From a bacterium (GTDB lineage: Bacteria; Auribacterota; Tritonobacteria; UBA1439): DNA of 64,000 bases. The number at the start of each line of letters is the position of its first letter. Position 1 is the first letter of the stretch. The notes under the pieces are model-generated. The model saw nothing but the letters and a program-made list of their open reading frames with translations, made no database searches and had not been told where the DNA came from. Shown here one piece after another: positions 1-45,096 of this stretch. A program made the position numbers and the translations under genes. Location of the stretch: assembly GCA_028716845.1 (NCBI GenBank), contig JAQUPF010000004.1, forward strand, positions 1-64,000, written 5' to 3'.

Positions 1-347
1 CCACCGTCTACGCGGGAGGGGCATTCCCCGGGGTCGGCGGCGCGGCGAGGAACTGCCTCCCGGCGCTCCACGCCGCCGGTTCCGGGACCGCGACCGACTG
101 GAATCCCGACCTCAACAGCACCGTGCGGGCCATCGCGGTCTGCGCCGGCACTGTCTACGCGGGGGGGGATTTCACGACCGTCGGCGGCGACTCCAGGTCG
201 CGCTTCGCTCGATTCGATCTGCCCGCTCTCAAACGGTACGACATCAATTTTCAGCCGGAAGGCATGGAGCCGCCGTTCGGCTTCATGCCGGCCCATGCCT
301 CGCCCTTCGGCGTGGGGCCGTCAGGCATCCAATTCGGCTGGAATTAG
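1..347 (+). CDS. Exported repeat (propeller-like) protein, 3' end, with C-terminal GW tail
   Basis: Only the last 114 codons lie in the window; the frame is open from base 3 to the edge, so the real start is upstream. Two units starting TVYAGG-F..VGG occur 49 residues apart, the spacing of blades in repeat propellers of the 'VYAGGxF' kind. The last ~35 residues (coding 243-344) read INFQP...FG...QFGWN and end at the stop. The same tail ends four other proteins here (27599, 28785, 31146 and 43075). An extracellular location is inferred from the repeat type; no signal peptide can be seen because the 5' end is missing. Confidence 0.75.
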   Translation, partial: TVYAGGAFPGVGGAARNCLPALHAAGSGTATDWNPDLNSTVRAIAVCAGTVYAGGDFTTVGGDSRSRFARFDLPALKRYDINFQPEGMEPPFGFMPAHASPFGVGPSGIQFGWN

Positions 348-27389: not shown

Positions 27390-27598
27390 CGCCCCCGGCA
27401 TTCTTGAAGCGTCGTCGAACCTCGAGACACCATGACCGCCGCGAGGCGCGCAACGGGGGTCAATCCTCAGAAAGGATGTCGCACGCGTTTCCGGTTTTCT
27501 AATGTCACCCTCGGCGATTCCACGTCAGGACACACCCTGCAATATGGGCAAGCGCCTGATCCGGCATTATAGTCAGAGGCCTTGCTCGCTTGCAACAT

Positions 27599-28414
27599 AT
27601 GCCTGGAGGAGAACGGAATCCCGATCCGGCACGGGGCGACCTGGCGCGCGTTAAAGGCGACTCGCCGCCCTATCAGGCGGTGTCCCGCATTTTCACGCTC
27701 GAGCGCGGCGACCCCGGCGCCGGCGAGGCGGCGAACGTCACGATCGTGGGCAACGGCCACGGCTACGATCCCGCCCTGCAGGGGAGCCTGAAGATCACGG
27801 TAAGCGACGGCGGGTACAGCATTACCTTCTCAAACGAGGGGCCGAACACCAACAGCTTCATGTACGGCCCCTACGACACCGACGAGGGCGGCATATCGCG
27901 GCTCCTGAACGAGGATTTCGAGGGGACGTGGCCGCCCGCCGGCTGGACGATGAACTCCATCGAATGGTCCACCAGTTCATCCAACAGCCCGACGCACAGC
28001 GCCCTCATCAACGCGAACGGCGACTACCTCATCACGCCACTCCTCGCCGCCCCCGACACCATGACGTTCTGGTACCGGGGGACGAGCGGCAGCCTGAACG
28101 TGGAGTACTCGAGCTCGACGGGCGGGCCCTGGAGCCACGTCACGGGGAGCCCGTTCGCCGGCTCCGGCTCGTGGGAGCAGCACTCCGTCAACCTCTCCGC
28201 CCACTCGAACATCTACATCCGGTTCACGAGGGTGCCGTCGGCTGGCCTTCACTACATCGACGATGTCGTGGTCACGTCGAGGGGAACATCGTCCGGCGGT
28301 CCCGCCGAGAGGATCAACTACCAGCCCGCGGCGGTCCCGACGCCGTCAGGGTGGAAGGCCGATTTCGGGCTTTCCTACGGCCCCCGCGGCGGTTCGGATT
28401 ACTACGGCTGGTAG
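27599..28414 (+). CDS. MAM-like (choice-of-anchor J) protein with GW tail, apparently lacking its 5' end
   Basis: 271 aa from ATG 27599; the frame is closed by TGA at 27557. There is no ribosome binding site and no signal peptide, unlike every relative here, so the 5' end is probably lost. Residues ~105-235 match a MAM/choice-of-anchor-J domain (LLNEDFEGTWPPAGWT, LITPLL, YIDDVVVTSR), the same domain as in the protease at 31146. The last 33 residues (28313-28411) are the tail INYQP...GLSYGPRG...YYGW, ending exactly at the stop. It is either a decaying gene or a fragment of a larger exported protein. Confidence 0.55.
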   Translation: MPGGERNPDPARGDLARVKGDSPPYQAVSRIFTLERGDPGAGEAANVTIVGNGHGYDPALQGSLKITVSDGGYSITFSNEGPNTNSFMYGPYDTDEGGISRLLNEDFEGTWPPAGWTMNSIEWSTSSSNSPTHSALINANGDYLITPLLAAPDTMTFWYRGTSGSLNVEYSSSTGGPWSHVTGSPFAGSGSWEQHSVNLSAHSNIYIRFTRVPSAGLHYIDDVVVTSRGTSSGGPAERINYQPAAVPTPSGWKADFGLSYGPRGGSDYYGW

Positions 28415-28621
28415 CGACGGCCGATCCCCGCGAGCAGCTCATCCCTCCAGGGCGATCCATTGCGTATTGCTTCACTATTCTTTTACATTTGAATGACAAC
28501 TTCCCTCGTCCGCAGGATAGAATGTTGTCTTGAATGGGAGGGACCCGGCATCCGTCGGCTCCATGTGCGATTCAAGCGCGGATCCGGCGAGCAGGACAAA
28601 CAGGAATCTTTCCCGCATCCC

Positions 28622-28649
28622 TTGACAATGCATATATTACAGGTATACT
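28622..28649 (+). promoter_or_regulatory. Strong sigma70-type promoter
   Basis: TTGACA (28622-28627), 16-bp spacer, TATACT (28644-28649). Upstream of the secreted metallo-beta-lactamase-fold gene; gives a 5' leader of about 75-130 nt depending on the start codon used. Confidence 0.82.
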
Positions 28650-28784
28650 TAATTGAAGGGTTGTTCCCGGGGGCTGTTGTGTCGTGGAGGATTTTCACGC
28701 ATCGGCGTCTCCTCCGGAGGAACGGTGATGGCTGCTTTTCCGTCCGGATCCCATCCTCGCCCAGGATGCCGCAGGAAGGGATAT

Positions 28785-31064
28785 ATGCTTGCGATACCTA
28801 AGAGGGCGCTCGCCGCCCTCCTGCCCCTCCTGCTCGCCGCCGGCGTGTGCCACGGCCAGAACCTGCTGAAGATCCACCACCTCAACGTCAACTGGGGGGA
28901 CGCCTCCCTCATCGAGTTTCCGGACGGGACGACCTGGCTCATCGACATGGGCTACTCCGACTCCGACGGCTACAAGGTTTACTCCTATATCTATGACCTC
29001 GGCTACACGGGTTCCCTCAACTACATAACCGCGAGCCATTTCCATTCCGACCACGTCGGCGGCGTGGACATGGTCATCGGGAGCGGCCTGCTGACGTACA
29101 CGGCGGCCGCGTACCAGCACATCGGCCCGCAGGTGGGGGGCGACAGCGGCTACACGACGACCTGGCGGAACCGGACGAACGGCTCGTGGGGGCCCGCCGC
29201 GACGAGCCCGACGGCGGGGCAGACGTGGAACTTCGGCGGCGTCGAGGTCCAGTGCATCGCCGTCGGGGACACGAACAACAGCAGGACGAGGCTCGTCGAC
29301 GGGACATACGTCTCCCTCGGCTCGGACGAGAACTCCTACAGCCTCGGCTTCCGGATCTCCTGGAACGGCTTCGATTACTACACGGCGGGCGACCTCACCT
29401 CGAACGCGGAGGACGTCCTCGGCCCGAAGATCGCCTCGCACAACTTCGACGTCATCAAGGTCAGCCATCACGGCTCGACCTCCTCCACGAGCGCCTCGTT
29501 CCTCAACCAGATGAAGCCGGAGGTCGCCGTCATCTCCGTCGGGTCGAGCAACCCCTACGGCCACCCCGCCTCCTCGACGCTCTCGAACCTCGTGAACGCC
29601 GGCGTCTCCTGGATCTACGTCACCGCCCGCGGCTCGAGCTCGCCGAACCCGGTCTCGAAGATGACCTACTGCGAGGACAATATCGTCGTCACCTACAACA
29701 ACGTCACCAATCAGTACACCGTCGTCGGGGGCCCCCGGAACGACACCTACGCCGCCGACGAGGGAACGGGGGAGCCCACGGCGACGCCCACGCCGCCGGG
29801 GCCGACGGCGACCCCCACGATCACGCCGACGCCCACGCAGACGCCCTCCTCGGAGAACCTGCTCCAGAACCCCGGCTTCGAGGAGGGGGGGACGCCGCCC
29901 GCCTCATGGGCGAAATCCGGCGGGACGTTCGACACGAGCTCGGACCGGGCCCGAAGCGGCTCGTACTCGGGGAAATACACGGATGACAACACGACGCTGA
30001 GCTACGCCCACCAGGTCGTCGTGGGGGTGACCGGCGGGGCGCAGTACGACTGCTCCGGCTGGATCTATGACAACACCTCGGCCGCCTACGGCTACTTCAG
30101 CGTGTATTGGTACGCGCCCTCCGACGGATCGGGCCCCAACATCGGCAGCGAGCAGTTCGGCGCCGACTCGGAGAACTCCTCCTCCTGGCAGTACCGTGAG
30201 GGGACGGTCACGGCCCCCTCGGGCGCGGGGTCGGCCCGGTTCCGGTGCAACATCAAGGCCACCTCGGCGCCCGCGACGATTTACTTCGACGACGTGCGCA
30301 TGGCCCCGCACGTCGCCGGCCCGTCTCCGACGCCCACGCGCACGCCGACGCGCACGCCCACCCCGACCGTGACGCCCACCCCGACGCCGACGCCGACGCC
30401 GTACCCGGACCTCCTCTTCTCCGACGACTTCCCCTCCTCCGTCATCGACACGGAGAAGTGGCCGACGAACGTCGGCCCGGCAACGAGCGTCATGGACGGC
30501 GACCACCCCGGCTACTCGCTCAACCTCAACGGCATATCGGCCGGCGGCGACCGGATCGAGTCGAGGACGATCGACCTCTCGGGGCAGGCGGGAGCGACGC
30601 TCGGCTACTGGTGGGCGCGCGCCGGCTCCGGCGACTCGCCGGAGACGGGCGACGATCTCATCATCGAGTACTGGAACGAGTACTGGAACTCGTCGGGAAC
30701 CTGGATCGAACTGGGCCGCCACCTCGGCTCCGGCCCGGACATGGTCGAATACGAGTTCGCCTCGCTGGAACTGCCCGCGGGGGCGCCGCACGCCGCCTTC
30801 CAATTCCGCTTCCGGTCGATCGGACGCAACCATGTCCGCGACCGCGACGACTGGTTCGTGGACGACGTCGAGGTCAGGGGCGCGAGCACGCTCTCCCCGA
30901 CCGCCACGCCGACGCCGACGATCACGCCGACGCCGGTGCCGGCGGATTTCCCGCTGAAGCTCAGCTTCCAGCCCGCCGAGACCGATCCCGTCGACGGCTA
31001 CATGCCGGACGACGGCTCTGACTACGGCCCGCGCGGGCCCCACGAGTACGGCTGGCAGCAGTAG
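28785..31064 (+). CDS. Secreted metallo-beta-lactamase-fold hydrolase (ComEC-C-like) with CBM- and MAM-like domains and GW tail
   Basis: 759 aa. Signal peptide MLAIPKRALAALLPLLLAAG-VCHGQ. Residues 25-310 form a metallo-beta-lactamase fold like the ComEC/Rec2 C-terminal domain: GDASLIEFPDG, HxHxDH at 85-90 (SHFHSDHVGG), KVSHHGS and GHPA. After a Thr-Pro linker comes a CBM4/9-like domain (ENLLQNPGFEEG...IYFDDVRM), a second linker, a MAM-like domain (LLFSDDFPSS...WFVDDVEV), a third linker and the tail LSFQP...YGPRG...YGWQQ. ATG 28785 has GGAAGGG 4 nt away. ATG 28728 with GGAGG inside a perfect palindrome (28710-28721) is a rival start adding 19 residues. The substrate is unknown (nucleic acid or phosphoester possible). 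Confidence 0.85.
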   Translation: MLAIPKRALAALLPLLLAAGVCHGQNLLKIHHLNVNWGDASLIEFPDGTTWLIDMGYSDSDGYKVYSYIYDLGYTGSLNYITASHFHSDHVGGVDMVIGSGLLTYTAAAYQHIGPQVGGDSGYTTTWRNRTNGSWGPAATSPTAGQTWNFGGVEVQCIAVGDTNNSRTRLVDGTYVSLGSDENSYSLGFRISWNGFDYYTAGDLTSNAEDVLGPKIASHNFDVIKVSHHGSTSSTSASFLNQMKPEVAVISVGSSNPYGHPASSTLSNLVNAGVSWIYVTARGSSSPNPVSKMTYCEDNIVVTYNNVTNQYTVVGGPRNDTYAADEGTGEPTATPTPPGPTATPTITPTPTQTPSSENLLQNPGFEEGGTPPASWAKSGGTFDTSSDRARSGSYSGKYTDDNTTLSYAHQVVVGVTGGAQYDCSGWIYDNTSAAYGYFSVYWYAPSDGSGPNIGSEQFGADSENSSSWQYREGTVTAPSGAGSARFRCNIKATSAPATIYFDDVRMAPHVAGPSPTPTRTPTRTPTPTVTPTPTPTPTPYPDLLFSDDFPSSVIDTEKWPTNVGPATSVMDGDHPGYSLNLNGISAGGDRIESRTIDLSGQAGATLGYWWARAGSGDSPETGDDLIIEYWNEYWNSSGTWIELGRHLGSGPDMVEYEFASLELPAGAPHAAFQFRFRSIGRNHVRDRDDWFVDDVEVRGASTLSPTATPTPTITPTPVPADFPLKLSFQPAETDPVDGYMPDDGSDYGPRGPHEYGWQQ

Positions 31065-31145
31065 CGCCCCGTCGGCGTCCGGGTGGCAATCCAAACCCGA
31101 TAGCGAGCGCGGCGCCTCCGAAGCGCCCTCGATTCGCCCGCCGGA

Positions 31146-32681
31146 ATGGGGTATACTGATTTCGCGAAACCGCGCGCGGTGTTCCGCCTCGTCCTCCTCG
31201 CTGCCCTCCTTCCCGTCCTCGCCCTCGCCCAGCAGTTCGCCCCCGGGATGGCCGCCTTCGGGCCGGACGATTCCATCGAGGTCATCCGCGCCAAGATCAG
31301 GCACAACAACTACCGCTTCACCGTGGACAACAACTGGGTCTACGACATGCCGCCCGAGATGAAGGCGGACTTCCTCAGCCGCCGGATGGGCATCTCGCCG
31401 AGGGCGGACGGCGGCGGCGAGGAGATGGGCCCCCTCGAGGCGGAGCTCGGGAAGACCCTCCCCTCCTCCTTCGACTGGCGGAACCGGAACGGCCGCTCCT
31501 TCATCGGCGACGTCAAGAACCAGGGATCGTGCGGCTCCTGCTACGCCTTCGGGGCGCTCGCCGCCGCCGAGGGGACCTACAACTACGCGATGGGCCTCTT
31601 CGACGCGGCGTGCGCCGATTTCTCGGAGTCGTTCGTCATCTGGTGCCTCGGGCGGCTCTCGAGATATTCCAGCCACTTCTACGGCTGCTCGGGGGCGGAC
31701 TACGACTACTACGAGCTCGAGGCGCTCACCGTCGAGGGGGTGTGCACGGAGGCCGCCTTCCCGTACCGGCAGACGGACCCCGGATCGTGCGCCCACTGGG
31801 ACAAGGAGCGCACCGTCTTCGCCTCCTGGCACCGCATCCCCTGCAACGACATCGACGCCATCAAGACGGCCATCATGACGTACGGCGTCGTGGACGCCGC
31901 CGTCTACGCGGGGAGCGCCTTCCAGGCGTACTCAGGCGGCGTCTACAACGACACGAACACCTCCTGCTCCGCGACCCCGTGCTACTACGCGACGACGAAC
32001 CACGCCATCGCCCTCGTCGGATGGGACGACAGCCCGCCCGAGGGGGGCGGCGGGGTCTGGATCCTCCGGAACTCGTGGGGGGGCGGCTGGGGGGAGGGCG
32101 GCTACATGCGGCTCCGCTACACCGCCGCACGCGTCGCCTGCGCCGCCTGCTACCTCGTCTACGAGCACGAGCCGGCGGTCGTCCGGGAGGCGTTCGATGA
32201 CGCCTTCCCCGCATCCGGCTGGCAGCAGGCGAACTGCGACCGGACATCCACCTCCCGGTCGGGGCCCTACAGCGTGCGGTTCGACAACGCCGCCGACTCC
32301 CTCGTCACGCCGCTCCTCAGGGGCGCGGCGTCGCTGACCTACTGGATGCGCGCCTCGACGGGCACGTCGAGCTTCAACGTGCAGTACGCCTCCTCGCCCG
32401 CGGGGCCGTGGGACCACCTGCCCGGCTCCCCGACCATGACGAACTACGCGAACGCCTTCAAGGAGGAGACGTTCGACCTCACCGGTTACGGGGACATCCA
32501 CGTGCGGTTCAGCAGGAACGACACGAAGACCTACTACCTGGACGACGTCCTCGTCGCCGAGCGGCCCGCGCCGGGGGCGAGGGTGAACTACCAGCCGAAC
32601 ACGGCCACGGTCCCCGACGGCAACGCGAAGGACGCCGCGGCGCCGTTCGGCCCGCGCGGCTCGTACTCCTTCGGCTGGTGA
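31146..32681 (+). CDS. Secreted papain-like cysteine protease (C1) with MAM-like domain and GW tail
   Basis: 511 aa. Hydrophobic signal (FRLVLLAALLPVLALAQQ), a short pro-region with FTVDNNWVYDMPPEMK, then a C1 peptidase: FDWRNRNG, oxyanion Gln126 and nucleophile Cys132 in NQGSCGSCYAFG, His in NHAIALVGW, Asn in ILRNSWGGGWGEGGYMRL. A MAM/choice-of-anchor-J domain at ~350-475 resembles that of the 27599 protein. The tail VNYQP...FGPRG...FGW (32583-32678) ends at the stop. The start is uncertain: a TATACT box overlaps ATG 31146, so GTG 31179 (giving a compact signal peptide) is possible. All catalytic residues are present. Confidence 0.9.
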   Translation: MGYTDFAKPRAVFRLVLLAALLPVLALAQQFAPGMAAFGPDDSIEVIRAKIRHNNYRFTVDNNWVYDMPPEMKADFLSRRMGISPRADGGGEEMGPLEAELGKTLPSSFDWRNRNGRSFIGDVKNQGSCGSCYAFGALAAAEGTYNYAMGLFDAACADFSESFVIWCLGRLSRYSSHFYGCSGADYDYYELEALTVEGVCTEAAFPYRQTDPGSCAHWDKERTVFASWHRIPCNDIDAIKTAIMTYGVVDAAVYAGSAFQAYSGGVYNDTNTSCSATPCYYATTNHAIALVGWDDSPPEGGGGVWILRNSWGGGWGEGGYMRLRYTAARVACAACYLVYEHEPAVVREAFDDAFPASGWQQANCDRTSTSRSGPYSVRFDNAADSLVTPLLRGAASLTYWMRASTGTSSFNVQYASSPAGPWDHLPGSPTMTNYANAFKEETFDLTGYGDIHVRFSRNDTKTYYLDDVLVAERPAPGARVNYQPNTATVPDGNAKDAAAPFGPRGSYSFGW

Positions 32682-39123: not shown

Positions 39124-39270
39124 GCCGAATGCCCCTCCCCTCTCCCGCGTTCGCCAGCGGGAGAGACATCGGAATGAAGCAGCGGGACGCCCGCGCATCG
39201 CGGCCGAATCGACGGGCGCGCGAAGTCCCCGCGCGCGAAAGGCCGCGGGCAGTTGCGGGTTGAAATAGCC

Positions 39271-40305
39271 ATGTGCCATCCCGACAGAGACGGATTCCCC
39301 CGCCCCCCCGAGGGGGCGTACGGCTGGCCGTGGATGGGGCCCTCACCCCGGTTCCCCGAGAAGATGCCGGACGGGAGGGTCTGGCCGAAGATAAGCATCG
39401 TCACGCCGAACTACAACTACTCCCGTTACCTTGAAGCAACCATCCGCTCCGTCCTGCTCCAGGGGTACCCCAATCTCGAGTACATCGTCATTGACGGCGG
39501 CAGCACCGACGGGAGCATTGAGATCATCAGGAAATACGAACCCTGGATCTCGTTCTGGACAAGCGGGCCTGACAGGGGTCAGTCGGAGGCGATCAATCGC
39601 GGCATGGCGAAAACCACCGGCGAGATCATGGCATGGATCAACAGCGATGACATGTACCAGCCATGGACATTCCGGACAGTTGCGGAGATCTTCAGCCTCC
39701 ACAGCGATGTAAACTGGCTCGTCGGATGTAATTCCTGGTGGGACGAGGAAGGCCGTCAGATCGCTGTCAAGCCGGTGTACAAGAACATCTACAACTACCT
39801 GCTCAATGATTACGGCTGGATCCAGCAGGAGTCCGTCTTCTGGCGGCGGCCGCTATGGGAGAAGGCGGGCGGCGGGCTTGACGAGAACTACATCCATCAG
39901 ATGGATGCGGAACTGTGGTGTCGGTTCTTTGTGTTGGACCACCTCTGGCACGTGGACGCCGTCATCGGAGGATTCAGGCGTCACGCGGCCAGCAAGACAA
40001 GGCAGAACCAGCAGGATACATTGGCGGCAATAGAGCACGCGATAGCGGCCATGAACCGTTCGGTGCCGGAATCGCTGCTGAAGAATGCACGGATCCTGAG
40101 GCGGATGCGAGCGGCAAAGAAGTTCCTCCCCTGGATCAACGTCGAGCGGATCGCCCGGTTGATTTTCCGTGGACTGTACCGCGAGGCCGATTACGGGCGG
40201 ATCAGCTTTATCGGCGGGGCGTGGGTCAAGAACACCGCGCCGTTCATGACCGGGGCATGGAAGCCCGGCACGCCGAACTTTCACGCGCGGAATGATGCCG
40301 ACTGA
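39271..40305 (+). CDS. Family 2 glycosyltransferase
   Basis: 344 aa from ATG 39271 (a TTG at 39253 is also in frame). After a ~45-residue N-terminal extension comes ISIVTPNYNYSRYLEATIRSVLLQ, YIVIDGGSTDGS, the metal-binding WINSDDMYQPW and an acidic MDAELWCRFF. The tail is basic and hydrophobic (RIARLIFRGLYR), probably membrane-associating. Resembles the GT2 at 34844. The ribosome binding site is weak. Confidence 0.88.
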   Translation: MCHPDRDGFPRPPEGAYGWPWMGPSPRFPEKMPDGRVWPKISIVTPNYNYSRYLEATIRSVLLQGYPNLEYIVIDGGSTDGSIEIIRKYEPWISFWTSGPDRGQSEAINRGMAKTTGEIMAWINSDDMYQPWTFRTVAEIFSLHSDVNWLVGCNSWWDEEGRQIAVKPVYKNIYNYLLNDYGWIQQESVFWRRPLWEKAGGGLDENYIHQMDAELWCRFFVLDHLWHVDAVIGGFRRHAASKTRQNQQDTLAAIEHAIAAMNRSVPESLLKNARILRRMRAAKKFLPWINVERIARLIFRGLYREADYGRISFIGGAWVKNTAPFMTGAWKPGTPNFHARNDAD

Positions 40306-40338
40306 TCCGGTCCGGCGGGACGTGAGAGTGTCGGTTCC

Positions 40339-41343
40339 ATGAGCATGTCTCGCACCGCAGCACGTTCGTCCGGCATCACCGTCGCCGTGCCCTGCCACAA
40401 CGCCGAGCGGTTCCTCGAGGGCTGCGTCCGCGCCATCATCAACCAGACCCTTCGACCGGTCGAGATCCTCGTCGTGGACGACGGTTCGACCGACCGGACG
40501 AGGGCGATCGCCGAGGGGCTCCCCGTGCGGATCGTCGGCCTCGACGGCCACCCCGGCCTCGCCGCCGCCCGGAACGCCGCCTTCGCCGCCGCCAGGACCG
40601 GCCTCGTCGCGGCGATCGACGTCGACTGCGTGGCGGACCCGACCTGGCTCGAGCGGCTCCTCGGGGCGCTCGAATCGTCGAAGGCGGCAGGCGCTGGCGG
40701 GCGGCTCGTCGAGGCGCATCGCACATCCCTCGGCGACCTCTGGCGCGCCGTCCACATGCGGCAGGACTGGGGATCGGCGCGGCTCGTCAACCCGCCGTTC
40801 CTCTTCGGCTGCAACACGCTCTTCCGGAAGGAGGCGGTCGAGGCCGTCGGCGGCTACGATCCCCGCTTCAGGACGAACGGCGAGGACGTCGACCTCTCGC
40901 GGCGGCTCATGCACGCGGGGCATACGCTCGTCTACGAGCCGTCCGCGATCGTGACGCACCTGAAGCGGGACACCGTCCTCTCCGTCCTCCGGGCCGACTG
41001 GCGCTGGGGCTACGCCGCCTCGGGCGAGACGATGAAGTACGAGCACAACGGCTTCATCGTCTACCACAACTGGCTGAACGCGCGTTACCGTGCAGGCAAG
41101 GACGTCGCCGCCCGGCGCTGGCGCCTCCTCCCGGTCGACCTCCTCCTCTTCTTCCGCCACACGTGCCTCGATCTCCGCCACGCCGCCGGGCTTCGGCGCT
41201 CGCGGGCGGTCCGCGTCGGCGCCTCGCGGCGCGAGACCTTCACCCGCTTCCTCCCGCACCTGGCGGAGCTGTCCCGAACGCTCTTCCTCAGGAACCCCGA
41301 CGAGGTAGCGGGCGCGCCGTCGCCGGGAGGCGACGCGCCATGA
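40339..41343 (+). CDS. Family 2 glycosyltransferase
   Basis: 334 aa. GT-A motifs ITVAVPCHNAERFLEGCVRA, ILVVDDGSTDRT, AAIDVDCVADPTW (metal-binding Asp pair) and YDPRFRTNGEDVDLSRRLMHAG. C-terminal ~90 residues are rich in Arg and hydrophobics (LLPVDLLLFFRHTCLDLRHAAG), suggesting membrane attachment. Its stop overlaps the start of the next glycosyltransferase (ATGA), so the two are co-translated. Confidence 0.9.
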   Translation: MSMSRTAARSSGITVAVPCHNAERFLEGCVRAIINQTLRPVEILVVDDGSTDRTRAIAEGLPVRIVGLDGHPGLAAARNAAFAAARTGLVAAIDVDCVADPTWLERLLGALESSKAAGAGGRLVEAHRTSLGDLWRAVHMRQDWGSARLVNPPFLFGCNTLFRKEAVEAVGGYDPRFRTNGEDVDLSRRLMHAGHTLVYEPSAIVTHLKRDTVLSVLRADWRWGYAASGETMKYEHNGFIVYHNWLNARYRAGKDVAARRWRLLPVDLLLFFRHTCLDLRHAAGLRRSRAVRVGASRRETFTRFLPHLAELSRTLFLRNPDEVAGAPSPGGDAP

Positions 41344-42365
41344 TCAGCGTCGTCATCCTCACGCACAACCGGCTCCCCATGCTCCGGGCCTGCGTGGAGA
41401 GCATCCGGGCGAACGATTTTCCCGATTACGAGATCGTCATCGTGGACAACGCATCCACGGACGGCACGCCGGAATATGCCGGCCGGCTCGCCGGCGCCCG
41501 CGTCGTCCGGTTCGAGGAGAACATGGACCTGGCAACCTCCCGGAACGCCGGGATCGACGCCGCCCGGGGCGACATCATCGCCTTTACCGACGACGACTGC
41601 GTCGTGGAGCGCGACTGGCTCGCGCGGATCGCCGCCGCCCTCGCCCGCCGCGACGCCGTCGGCGGCGTCGTGAAGCTCGGGAGCGACGTCCGGAAGCCGC
41701 GCTGGTGGGACGAGGAGCTGAACTGGATGCCGGGCCTCAGCGTGCCGGGCCTCTCCGGGCCGCTCGGGGGGGAGGTCTACCTTCCCCAGTCCGCGAACCT
41801 CGCCTACAGGGCGGACGTGCTGCGGCGGCTGCGGTTCCGGGAGGGGGTCGGCGGGATCGGCGCGAGAAACATGACGCGCGAGGACTCCGACCTGTGGGCG
41901 CGGACCCGGTCGGGCGGCTTCCGCACCTCCATCGACACGGGCCTTGTCGTGTACCACATGCTCCCCGCCCGCAGGTTCACCCTGCGGTTCTGCATCGGGA
42001 GGGCGTTCAGCGACGGCTACGCCGCCTATTTCCGGGAGGACGGGGCGGCGTCCTGGCGGGAGAAGCTCCGCTTCGTGGCCCGCCGGCCGTTCGACATCCT
42101 GCGGCGGCTGCTGCGCGGCGGGGATCGGCCGCGCGCGATCGAGTATTTCTGGGTCGTCCGGCAGGCCGGCTTCGTCTTCGCCCATCTTCGGGAGCATTGC
42201 CCGCTCCGCGGCCTCGGTTCCCACCTCGCCCGCGCGCTCGCGGGGATCAAAGGAGCGCTGTCGTGCGCCGCGGTGATCGTCACAGAGGGCGTCTGCCTGG
42301 CGGCCATCCGGATCGGCAATCGGCTCTCTGATCGCGACGGGCGGGGGACGCCGCGGCGGCCATGA
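41340..42365 (+). CDS. Family 2 glycosyltransferase
   Basis: 341 aa, starting in the ATGA overlap with the previous gene. ISVVILTHNRLPMLRACVESI, EIVIVDNASTDGT, IAFTDDDCVVERDW (DxD-type) and an acceptor segment with MTREDSDLWARTRSGG. C-terminal ~60 residues contain a hydrophobic helix (LSCAAVIVTEGVCLAAI). Its stop overlaps the start of an ECF sigma factor, an unusual partner. Confidence 0.9.
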   Translation: MISVVILTHNRLPMLRACVESIRANDFPDYEIVIVDNASTDGTPEYAGRLAGARVVRFEENMDLATSRNAGIDAARGDIIAFTDDDCVVERDWLARIAAALARRDAVGGVVKLGSDVRKPRWWDEELNWMPGLSVPGLSGPLGGEVYLPQSANLAYRADVLRRLRFREGVGGIGARNMTREDSDLWARTRSGGFRTSIDTGLVVYHMLPARRFTLRFCIGRAFSDGYAAYFREDGAASWREKLRFVARRPFDILRRLLRGGDRPRAIEYFWVVRQAGFVFAHLREHCPLRGLGSHLARALAGIKGALSCAAVIVTEGVCLAAIRIGNRLSDRDGRGTPRRP

Positions 42366-42961
42366 ACGCGGGCCCGCCGCACCATTCCGGGGGAGCGCGC
42401 GAGGAGGAGCTGCGCGCCATCGACGCCTGCATCCGGGGGGACGTCGAGCGCTTCGCGCCCATCTTCGAGGCCTACAGGGAGAGGGTATACTACCTGGCCC
42501 TGAGCATCGTGAAGGAGCAGTCGCTCGCCAAGGACGTGGCGCAGGCGAGTTTCATCAAGGCGTTCAAGGCGCTGAAATGGTTCAACCGGCGGTCGTCGTT
42601 CTCCACGTGGCTGTTCAGGATCACCTACAACGAGGCACTGGACGCCTTCCGGCGGAGGAAGAGACGCGAGGAGCGCGAACCGGCGGGGGAGGAAACGACC
42701 GCCCTCCTCCGGTCTCCCGGACCCGACCCCTTCCAGCGGCTCGCCGGCGACGAACTCCGGGAGCGGGTCGCCGCCGCGGTCCGGGCCCTCCCCGTGAAGC
42801 TCCGGACCTCCGTGGTGCTGCGGTACGGCGAGGGGCTCACCTTCAGCGAGATATGCAGCGTCATGGGCTGCGCGAGGGGGGTCCTCCAGCGGCGCCTCGC
42901 CCGGGCCCATGCCATTATAAGGGACATCCTGGGGCCGGAGTCTGAGGGGGCGGGAAAGTAG
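42362..42961 (+). CDS. ECF-family RNA polymerase sigma factor
   Basis: 199 aa, start in an ATGA overlap with the glycosyltransferase. Region 2: FAPIFEAYRERVYYLALSIV, DVAQASFIKAFKAL, and FSTWLFRITYNEALDAFRR for -10 recognition. Region 4: ALPVKLRTSVVLRYGEGLTFSEICSVMGC and RGVLQRRLARA as the -35 helix-turn-helix. It lacks region 3, as ECFs do. The next gene encodes a single-pass membrane protein in the position of an anti-sigma factor. Coupling to a glycosyltransferase suggests envelope-polysaccharide or exoprotein regulation. Confidence 0.93.
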   Translation: MNAGPPHHSGGAREEELRAIDACIRGDVERFAPIFEAYRERVYYLALSIVKEQSLAKDVAQASFIKAFKALKWFNRRSSFSTWLFRITYNEALDAFRRRKRREEREPAGEETTALLRSPGPDPFQRLAGDELRERVAAAVRALPVKLRTSVVLRYGEGLTFSEICSVMGCARGVLQRRLARAHAIIRDILGPESEGAGK

Positions 42962-43074: not shown

Positions 43075-43578
43075 ATGCGCAGCGAAAAAAGCGCCCGCGT
43101 TCACCAGAAGGTCGAGGGTGTATTGCAGAACGTGTTGGCTTCCGACAGGAAGCGGCATGCTCCCGGACCGCCTTCCATTCCCACGTGGGCCGGGGTGCGT
43201 CCCGGCATCGAGCGCGACATCGCGCGCAGGGGCCGCAAGAGCGCATTCTTCAGGACGCTCGACGATTGGCGGGGGGGGCTCCGGGTGGCGATTCTGCCCG
43301 CGGCACGCCGGGGGGGCGCAGAGGCCGTCCACTGGGGCAAGATCGCAACCATTCCCGCGATAGGCCTGCTCCTCGTCCTGTTCGCCTCCGGCACATTCCA
43401 TCACCGCAGCCGGCAACCCGTTTCTCATCCCGCAACCGTGGCATCCGCCAGGGCATCCATCCAGGTCAACTTCCAGCCCGAGGGAGACGGGGCGCAGGTC
43501 GGCTATTTCAGGGACTCCGGGGAGGGATTTGACGTGTGCATGGGACAGAACGGCGAAAGGAGGTTCGGCTGGCGATAG
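43075..43578 (+). CDS. Single-pass membrane protein with periplasmic GW tail, in anti-sigma position
   Basis: 167 aa from ATG 43075 (AAGGGA 7 nt upstream; an in-frame GTG at 43009 would add 22 residues). Residues 1-87 are basic and cytosolic, with no HxxxCxxC zinc anti-sigma motif. 88-108 is one hydrophobic helix (IATIPAIGLLLVLFAS). A short linker then leads directly to the tail VNFQP...VGYFRDSGEGF...RRFGWR (residues 131-167), the only extracytoplasmic domain. The gene follows the ECF sigma factor by 113 bp. The arrangement recalls RsgI-type anti-sigma factors that display a copy of an exoprotein module; this role is inference. Confidence 0.75.
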   Translation: MRSEKSARVHQKVEGVLQNVLASDRKRHAPGPPSIPTWAGVRPGIERDIARRGRKSAFFRTLDDWRGGLRVAILPAARRGGAEAVHWGKIATIPAIGLLLVLFASGTFHHRSRQPVSHPATVASARASIQVNFQPEGDGAQVGYFRDSGEGFDVCMGQNGERRFGWR

Positions 43579-43659: not shown

Positions 43660-45096
43660 ATGAAGGGCAGGATGTGGTGCGCGGTGCTCGCAATCATCAC
43701 GGTCGGATCGTTCGTGCCGGTCCACGCGGCGCTCACGACGGGCGGAGGGGCAAGCGTCAACCCGAACCCGGAATACGACACGTACGTCGAGAAGACGGCC
43801 GACAGCCCGGATGCGGCCGCGATCTGGGAGATCGCCCTCTCCACGGGCGGCCAGCCGAGCAAGACGTACTACGTCACGCTCGCCTGCGGGAACCCGTCCG
43901 CGGCTCGGGGCCCGCACCTGGTGCAGCTCTCGGGTGACGGGTCGAGTTACTCGACCGTGCTGAATACATCGACCACGGCCGACAACTACGTTTCGGTCAC
44001 AAACGCGGCGGTGAGCGTGACCGAGGCCTACGGGAAGCTCAGCCTGAAGCTCGGCGGCAACAGCGTCACGAACAACCTCAACTTCATCATCATCACGGAG
44101 GACCTGTTCACCCTGCCTCCCATTTCGGACTGCACCTCCTTCAGCCAGTACCAGAAGCTGGATCACTTCCGCTATACGTATTGGAACGGGGCCTCCTATC
44201 AGAATCTGTTTCTCAACGCTCCCACAAGAAGATGGACACTTGACGGGGAGGCAGCCGCCCCGCTTATTAACATAAACTCATTCCGCCCGGGTGGCACGAC
44301 GGCAGAACCTGCAATGCTCTGGACCGCGCCATTCGACGATACCATTAAGGTCCAGGGATGGACAACCAAGGTTGTCGATCCGCCGAACTACGGGGATGGC
44401 GTGTATGTACGGCTCGTGAAGAACGGAAACACTGCATCGCCGCTCTGGGAGCAGTTCATCACAGGTGATGATACCACCTTCTATCCCTTTGATGTATCTC
44501 CCATAACGATCGTCGCCGGAGATACGATCGCACTTCATCTGCATAAGAACGGTGACCACTTTTTTGATTCAACACAGCACAACATTGTCATCTCCAGCAT
44601 CTCTGATGGCAATGCGTGGAGCGCGAGCGGCGGATTCAGCAGGGAACAGGGGTACAACAATTGGTCCTATCGGCGGTGGAACGGAAGTCAGTATAACAAT
44701 CTGGTTCTCAATACCACCACCAGAACCTGGACAACAGATGGAAGCAATACACCCCCGAGGGTCAACATTAATGCCCAATTGCCCGGGGACAGCGAAGACT
44801 CCGTGAGGACATGGACAGCACCTTCAACCGGGACAATCAATGTAGTCGGCTGGGCAACAAGGGTTATTGATCCTCCCCCGCAGGGAGACGGTGTCTATGT
44901 GCGGATTGTCAAGAACTCTAATATCGGTTCGCCCCTGTGGGAACGGTTCCTCGATTACGACGACTATACGTTATATCGGATCAACCTGAACGGGATCGAG
45001 GTGAACGCGGGAGATACTATTAATTTCATTGTGAACAGAAACGGCAACCGTTTTTACGACTCTACCAAGGTTGACGCCGTTGTCATCTATCAGTAG
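43660..45096 (+). CDS. Exported protein with two tandem ~130-residue repeats, unknown function
   Basis: 478 aa with AAAAGGAGG 8 nt before the ATG. Signal peptide 1-23. Residues ~30-150 are a beta-rich module ending IIITEDLF. The rest is two copies of a unit: Y-WNG-QN-L-LN-TR-WT-DG, P-ININ...PG, TWTAPF-TI-V-GW-T, DPP-GDGVYVR-VKN, SPLWE-F...D-T-Y, GDTI...-NG-FFDST. The second repeat is richer in A/T third positions. No GW tail or VDVYL domain. Directly downstream of the sigma/membrane-protein pair, so it is a candidate target of that sigma factor, by inference. An adhesin or carbohydrate-binding role is possible. Confidence 0.75.
   Translation: MKGRMWCAVLAIITVGSFVPVHAALTTGGGASVNPNPEYDTYVEKTADSPDAAAIWEIALSTGGQPSKTYYVTLACGNPSAARGPHLVQLSGDGSSYSTVLNTSTTADNYVSVTNAAVSVTEAYGKLSLKLGGNSVTNNLNFIIITEDLFTLPPISDCTSFSQYQKLDHFRYTYWNGASYQNLFLNAPTRRWTLDGEAAAPLININSFRPGGTTAEPAMLWTAPFDDTIKVQGWTTKVVDPPNYGDGVYVRLVKNGNTASPLWEQFITGDDTTFYPFDVSPITIVAGDTIALHLHKNGDHFFDSTQHNIVISSISDGNAWSASGGFSREQGYNNWSYRRWNGSQYNNLVLNTTTRTWTTDGSNTPPRVNINAQLPGDSEDSVRTWTAPSTGTINVVGWATRVIDPPPQGDGVYVRIVKNSNIGSPLWERFLDYDDYTLYRINLNGIEVNAGDTINFIVNRNGNRFYDSTKVDAVVIYQ

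Follow-up and report, generated by a model that had tools for sequence, protein, structure and literature searches.

A C-terminal GW tail in Candidatus Auribacterota: a proposed split-domain tag shared by cargo and an anti-sigma factor

Introduction

Exported enzymes that bear a dockerin share one tag for a scaffold receptor, and the dockerin is a complete calcium-binding domain. Tags of the PEP-CTERM type combine a motif, a transmembrane helix and a basic cluster and are processed by a protease, and the C-terminal domains of the T9SS are larger, complete folds. In donor-strand complementation, as found in chaperone-usher pili, a short segment of one protein completes the unfinished beta-sandwich of another. 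To our knowledge, it is proteases or secretion machines that read the known C-terminal sorting tags, and we know of no RsgI protein that bears a dockerin tag.

The cellulosomal system of clostridia is, in the accounts given in PMC12203970 and PMC4711584, regulated through SigI/RsgI with polysaccharide-sensing membrane anti-sigma factors. In cell-surface signalling (FecI-FecR-FecA, PupR-PupB, FoxR-FoxA) the extracytoplasmic C-terminus of the anti-sigma factor contacts the N-domain of the receptor, as outlined in PMC7186176 and PMC11637429. PEP-CTERM/exosortase, GlyGly-CTERM/rhombosortase and MYXO-CTERM are presented in PMC3237569, PMC1569441 and PMC11980579 as many-to-one tags that were traced by phylogenetic profiling and gene adjacency.

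Here we analyse a bacterial DNA window (the whole stretch studied, 64,000 nucleotides) for which an original prediction, made from the letters alone, claimed that five otherwise different proteins end in a common tail closing with GW. What appears to be new is a proposed split-domain tag together with a tagged anti-sigma factor. The open-access literature yielded neither a description of the Tritonobacteria tails nor anti-sigma factors linked with donor-strand docking.

Materials and Methods

The source belongs to the class Tritonobacteria of Candidatus Auribacterota (PVC group). The genome of the window, G000 (2.68 Mb, 36 contigs), was searched whole, and the comparison set consisted of 44 genomes of the phylum, including 7 of the class. 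An HMM built from the five window tails was run on G000 (round 1) and iterated once (round 2); this search reads through stop codons, so that a continuing domain would have shown. Signal peptides of the carrier proteins were called by a simple rule and compared with shuffled sequences. In addition, 84,980 named species were scanned for a DNA pattern (NFQP, 58-85 bases, [FY]GW, one codon, stop). All window features given below lie on the plus strand.

Results

Translation confirmed the five predicted tails, INFQPEGMEPPFGFMPAHASPFGVGPSGIQFGWN, INYQPAAVPTPSGWKADFGLSYGPRGGSDYYGW, LSFQPAETDPVDGYMPDDGSDYGPRGPHEYGWQQ, VNYQPNTATVPDGNAKDAAAPFGPRGSYSFGW and VNFQPEGDGAQVGYFRDSGEGFDVCMGQNGERRFGWR, each followed by a stop codon. 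As had been claimed, all five end 0-2 residues past GW, and their alignment has seven invariant columns. Tail 1 (243..344) is the C-terminus of a beta-propeller-repeat protein whose ORF (3-347) starts before the contig end, i.e. it begins outside the contig, because position 1 of the window is position 1 of the contig. Tail 2 (28313..28411) closes a MAM/choice-of-anchor-like fragment (27590..28414) with neither a recognisable signal peptide nor an in-frame continuation upstream; this ORF may be a gene fragment or remnant that has retained its tail. The carrier of tail 3 (30960..31061) is a secreted metallo-beta-lactamase-fold hydrolase with a CBM_4_9-like domain and Thr-Pro linkers (28785..31064), starting with MLAIPKRALAALLP inside ORF 28653-31064, and tail 4 (32583..32678) ends a secreted papain-family (C1) peptidase with a choice-of-anchor J-like domain (31146..32681). 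These last three genes are indeed consecutive (27590-32681). Tail 5 (43465..43575) is predicted to lie outside the cytoplasm. The view that the carriers are otherwise unrelated stood, with the correction that the fifth, taken for a generic 'membrane helix' protein, is an anti-sigma factor. The element [FY]GPRG, described as usual, is so within the window but is not typical across the four genomes that carry many tails, where the most constant parts are a P near the start and the GW at the end. The tails contain neither a hydrophobic helix nor a basic cluster, in line with the reported lack of a transmembrane helix and an Arg cluster. None of 21 single tails was matched by Pfam, and NCBIfam gave no tail match among the window carriers.

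The tail recurs far above chance. Round 1 found 15 further tails in G000, so that 20 out of 20 stood at the end of a reading frame, and round 2 raised the number of confident tails to about 22. Tag-rich genomes were 4 of the 44, namely G000 (22 tails), G003 (about 21), G005 (about 12) and G006 (about 40), and no C-terminal tail was found in the other 40 genomes of the phylum. G001 and G004, members of the window's own family, had zero tail matches; G002 and G026 had one match each, both internal, in which NFQP..YGW opens a full domain of ~145 residues. The distance to the stop codon was at most 4 residues for 22/22 tails in G000, 18/21 in G003, 11/12 in G005 and 38/40 in G006. The exceptions include near-terminal variants (12, 15 or 8 residues before the stop) and one full-length domain copy within a receptor. 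The expected genome-wide C-terminal tag on exported proteins is thus borne out by the HMM in G000 and its relatives, and a predominance of internal matches, which the prediction had named as an argument against itself, did not occur, internal positions being almost absent from the tag-rich genomes. The DNA pattern scan, which misses tails not spelled NFQP..[FY]GWx-stop, gave 33 stretches among the 84,980 named species; in-frame tails were confined to Candidatus Tritonobacter lacicola, which shares contigs with G006, and the MAG ERR2113683_bin.0, which shares contigs with G005, the other stretches being chance matches.

Two unusual cases are worth recording. At L069 (G003:C6:52744) the reading frame runs on past the tail for 82 residues that bear no relation to the domain, perhaps through loss of a stop codon. 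At L101 (G006:C45) the tag sits not at the C-terminus but at the mature N-terminus, right after the signal peptide, and judging from this protein the tag seems to be position-independent.

The carriers include papain-like, C25-type and subtilisin-like peptidases, metallo-beta-lactamase-fold hydrolases, phospholipase-D-like and lamin-tail-domain proteins, PQQ-type propellers and proteins with pre-peptidase C-terminal domains, and TSP3 or Thr-Pro linkers often stand immediately N-terminal to the tail. By the simple rule, a signal peptide or signal-anchor was present in 66 of 80 complete carriers, compared with 6.5 in shuffled sequences and 3/55 when the rule was applied to internal stretches. 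A row of four tagged secreted genes, three with TSP3 stalks, is found at L122 (G000:C1:328000-345000), in the order pre-peptidase C-terminal protein, C25 (gingipain-type) peptidase, metallo-beta-lactamase-fold protein and subtilase. No ECF-type motif was seen upstream of 64 tagged genes, where the best dyad was the housekeeping TTGAC..TATA, and control of the cargo genes by the sigma factor described below is therefore unsupported.

The origin of the tail can be read from profile comparison. In hhalign the tail profile falls on columns 1-36 of three full-length domains that are unrelated to one another's hosts here (E 2.2e-15), which bears out the claim that a similar segment opens a malectin-like domain in other bacteria. 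The full CBM35/malectin-like domain has ~148 residues and the tail ~33, and the positions conserved in the full domain remain conserved in diverged tails. Full-length domains with the same opening motif occur in a Chloroflexi MAG (VNFQPTSASVPTGYLVDGGQTFGSRGNGFTYGWN...), more distant ones in Paenibacillus and in two contigs labelled viral. The prediction that the tailed proteins stop where the domain would continue held for 88 of the 92 tails, for which the rest of the domain is absent downstream in any frame. A profile of the full domain hits the N-terminal domain of B. subtilis YxiM (PDB 2o14, E 8.7e-6, model positions 12-146), and Pfam PF21254 (AGA-YXIM_GBD) was matched under its cut-off. 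Judging by homology across the domain, tail and body together belong to the AGA-YXIM_GBD/CBM35-malectin-like family. A model of a full-length relative (pLDDT 65), in which residues 7-60 are poorly defined, had 2o14 as its top match (Z 7.8), tied with a pectate-lyase CBM and CBM36, all with Z <8; its nearness to 2o14, CBM36, CBM35 and plant malectin-like ectodomains (Z 7-8) is suggestive only. A full-length copy (VNFQCFNT..YGW...) also ends a multi-spanning membrane protein at L131 (G003:C44:76444), with a homologous fragment at L145 (G005:C86:239).

Where, then, is the remainder of the domain? A search with the full-length domain brought up, in addition to the tails, one protein per tag-rich genome whose match begins only at about position 21-47. 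The window's member is P0009 (43660..45096, 478 aa), the candidate receptor, with a signal peptide (MKGRMWCAVLAIITVGSFVPVHA) followed by ALTTGGGASVNPNPEYDTYVEK...WEIALS...YYVTLACGNP..., a truncated CBM35/malectin-like domain (43729..44103) that lacks the 34 tail-equivalent residues, and two repeats of another beta-rich domain. It has no Pfam match of any kind. The statement that the window holds no apparent processing enzyme overlooked this candidate partner, whose ORF lies directly downstream of tail 5. Counterparts exist in G003 (L134), G005 (L089) and G006 (L130), and in all receptors the truncated domain comes directly after the signal peptide. The receptor bodies align to columns 63-147 of the full-length domains (E 2.5e-15). 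Their mature N-termini correspond to about domain positions 35-41, counted back from a conserved [DR]T, and the tails end at W34; when tail 5 plus the window body is aligned with three full-length domains, the only large gap is at the linker and signal peptide. Read from the sequences, the putative acceptor domain is short of the very segment present on its proposed partner.

With a profile built from the four bodies, each tag-rich genome gave a single N-truncated copy (E 1e-38 to 1e-57), and the other 40 genomes of the phylum gave none; G002 has a full-length copy only. The truncated domain is the part common to receptors of different genera. Beyond it, G000 and G003 have two repeats, G005 has further full-length copies, and G006 has one copy plus other beta-domains, and the receptors of G003 and G005 otherwise differ. 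A body lies within 900 bp downstream of 4 of the 92 tails, and these are exactly the four anti-sigma loci, one per tag-rich genome; the tail is therefore tied to the receptor. None of the receptor C-termini carries a tail, and self-polymerisation of the receptor through a tail of its own was accordingly rejected. Tail and body were also modelled by AlphaFold as one chain (mean pLDDT 46, pTM 0.39, only 4 sequences), an artificial fusion in which TAG was read as Q to bridge two stops, and the confidence of this model was too low to count either for or against docking.

The receptor gene is the third of a conserved unit. In the window it is preceded by an ECF sigma factor (Sigma70_r2, Sigma70_r4_2; 42362..42961) and by the anti-sigma factor that ends in tail 5 (43075..43578, likely start ATG 43075, one transmembrane helix). 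The order ECF sigma, tailed anti-sigma, receptor is the same in 4/4 tag-rich genomes, and the three-gene operon occurs in exactly these four genomes of the 44. The ECF sigma factors are 49-58% identical between the genomes. With a profile of the full-length anti-sigma factor, the four tag-rich genomes give E 1e-68 to 1e-95, and the rest of the seven-genome class gives only weak matches, through the zinc finger. A zf-HC2 zinc finger is present in 3/4 of the anti-sigma factors and absent from the window copy, for which none was readable in other upstream frames either; sigma binding in the window's species may differ. Anti-sigma tail and receptor share a reading frame at 3/4 loci, which is not significant.

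Glycosyltransferase family 2 genes (39253..42365) lie directly upstream of the sigma unit, and in G000, G003 and G006 the unit is inside a polysaccharide-biosynthesis/glycosyltransferase cluster. In the window this cluster (34000-54500) holds glycosyltransferases, an epimerase, a sulfatase and a phosphodiesterase, and many of its glycosyltransferases recur in G003 and G006. As to the distribution of the operon, the tag-less G001, G002 and G004 are within the window's family and the tag-rich G006 is in another family, so tag and operon were gained or lost jointly at least once; since the four genomes share ancestry, the co-occurrence represents few independent events.

Components of known tag systems were also looked for. 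Exosortase (PF09721) is present in G005 and G006 (G005:C158:3229, G006:C39:15586), where a PEP-CTERM-type system may coexist, and absent from G000 and G003 (the control was positive). Because these two tag-rich genomes lack it, exosortase was rejected as the partner of the tail. The search for SprA/Sov (PF14349) gave no match, the control genomes being silent as well, so that a T9SS may still be present; no T9SS C-terminal domain was found on cargo with Pfam on 21 tails and NCBIfam on the window carriers, and no dockerin among the proteins scanned.

Discussion

We propose that one domain has been split into a tag and a receptor, and that both the cargo and the anti-sigma factor dock by completing the receptor fold, a reading that we consider fairly probable. 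It builds on tail homology, C-terminal position, complementary truncation, the operon and co-occurrence, all of them features of sequence. In this mechanism, a CBM35/malectin-like beta-sandwich would exist as two secreted halves. The first ~34 residues, i.e. the NFQP strand and the loop to YGW, would be carried as a movable C-terminal tag by 12-40 exported proteins in each genome, and one secreted receptor, incomplete alone, would have the other ~120 residues as its mature N-terminus. From complementary truncation, conservation, adjacency and co-occurrence we infer that the tag docks non-covalently outside the cytoplasm and completes the receptor domain, a donor-strand-like event with dockerin-like logic. 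Docking would tether the cargo to the receptor, whose other domains are likely carbohydrate-binding; these domains and the polysaccharide gene neighbourhood suggest that the receptor might be held by surface polysaccharide, with the tagged proteins tethered there. Among the roles first suggested for the tail, namely sorting, anchoring or strand complementation, the evidence thus favours strand complementation, and anchoring would be its likely purpose. Points that speak against the proposal are the N-terminal tag of one G006 carrier, the zinc finger missing from the window's anti-sigma factor, the lack of an ECF-type motif upstream of the tagged genes and the common ancestry of the four tag-rich genomes.

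Docking of the anti-sigma factor would take place on this receptor too, but from the side of the membrane. Since its tag is that of the cargo, the two should compete for one site, and such competition would let the ECF sigma factor sense the occupancy of the receptor. This extension, by which competition would gauge the free sites and inform the sigma factor of them, is tentative, and we regard it as possible but doubtful.

Other readings have to be weighed against the split domain. The tail might be a linear sorting signal for some secretion or processing machine, the receptor/anti-sigma locus being only its evolutionary source, where a membrane-anchored full-domain gene was split and its 3' end reused as a tag. 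Such a signal would resemble known sorting tags in standing at the very C-terminal end of linker-bearing proteins that have a signal peptide, and the adjoining of tail and body at one locus is what gene fission predicts. However, the tail has no transmembrane helix or basic cluster, exosortase is missing from G000 and G003, diverged tails keep the conserved positions of the full domain, and a mere source locus does not explain why the truncation of the receptor is kept in four genomes; we find a sorting signal unlikely on these grounds. It is still less probable, in our judgement, that receptor and anti-sigma tail are a dedicated signalling pair of the FecR-FecA kind, with the cargo tails acting as secreted competitors or messengers and not as tethers. 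The tailed anti-sigma factor does adjoin the receptor in 4/4 genomes and its partner sigma factor is conserved, but the cargo is made up of large enzymes and of proteins on stalks, with TSP3 or Thr-Pro linkers right before the tail, for which tethering is the better fit.

A free-standing glycan-binding mini-module would agree with the descent of the tail from a carbohydrate-binding-type domain, but 33 residues are about a quarter of that domain and lack most of its strands, and the modelled full domain is itself poorly defined over residues 7-60, so we think this very improbable. Finally, relatives with a full-length domain could raise the suspicion of 3'-truncation by assembly errors or frameshifts, an outcome that the original prediction itself had named as fatal. 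It did not occur: the 92 tails, from four genomes that were assembled separately, end at one and the same point, and no continuation in another frame was seen except at the receptor locus. The 88 tails with no body downstream dispose of the artefact, to which we give practically no credence.

If the split-domain tag is real, it would be a new way of tethering secreted proteins with a built-in occupancy sensor, it would account for what becomes of dozens of exported enzymes in a phylum without cultured members, and it would offer a natural short-peptide/receptor pair usable for protein display. The recognition partner is readable from sequence because the candidate receptor holds the part of the domain that the tag leaves out. 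Tag and probable docking partner can thus both be named, and are testable with a peptide and one recombinant domain.

It is instructive to compare the proposed system with those described earlier. The likeness to cohesin-dockerin and SigI-RsgI is that many exported enzymes share one tag and that an anti-sigma factor is involved; the difference is that a dockerin is complete in itself, whereas the GW tail is a piece of its candidate partner. With chaperone-usher pili the proposal shares the completion of a beta-sandwich, but here it is the N-terminal strand and loop that are missing, from a CBM35/malectin-like fold, a single acceptor would serve dozens of unrelated cargo proteins, and the receptors, having no terminal tail, should not polymerise, unlike pili. 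As in cell-surface signalling, an ECF sigma factor and a membrane anti-sigma factor are encoded together. The receptor, on the other hand, has no TonB-dependent barrel (P0009, 478 aa, no Pfam match), the domain fold differs, and the putative contact element is also found on dozens of other secreted proteins. The suggested comparison with PEP-CTERM-type tags fails on architecture, as the tail has no such motif, helix or basic cluster and its candidate partner is a truncated domain, and also on the absence of exosortase from 2/4 tag-rich genomes. The domains of the T9SS are likewise C-terminal elements on exported proteins, but larger and complete. The closest relatives by descent are the YxiM N-domain, PF21254 and the malectin-like and CBM35 domains, which belong to the same family as the reassembled tail and body and are elsewhere one continuous domain.
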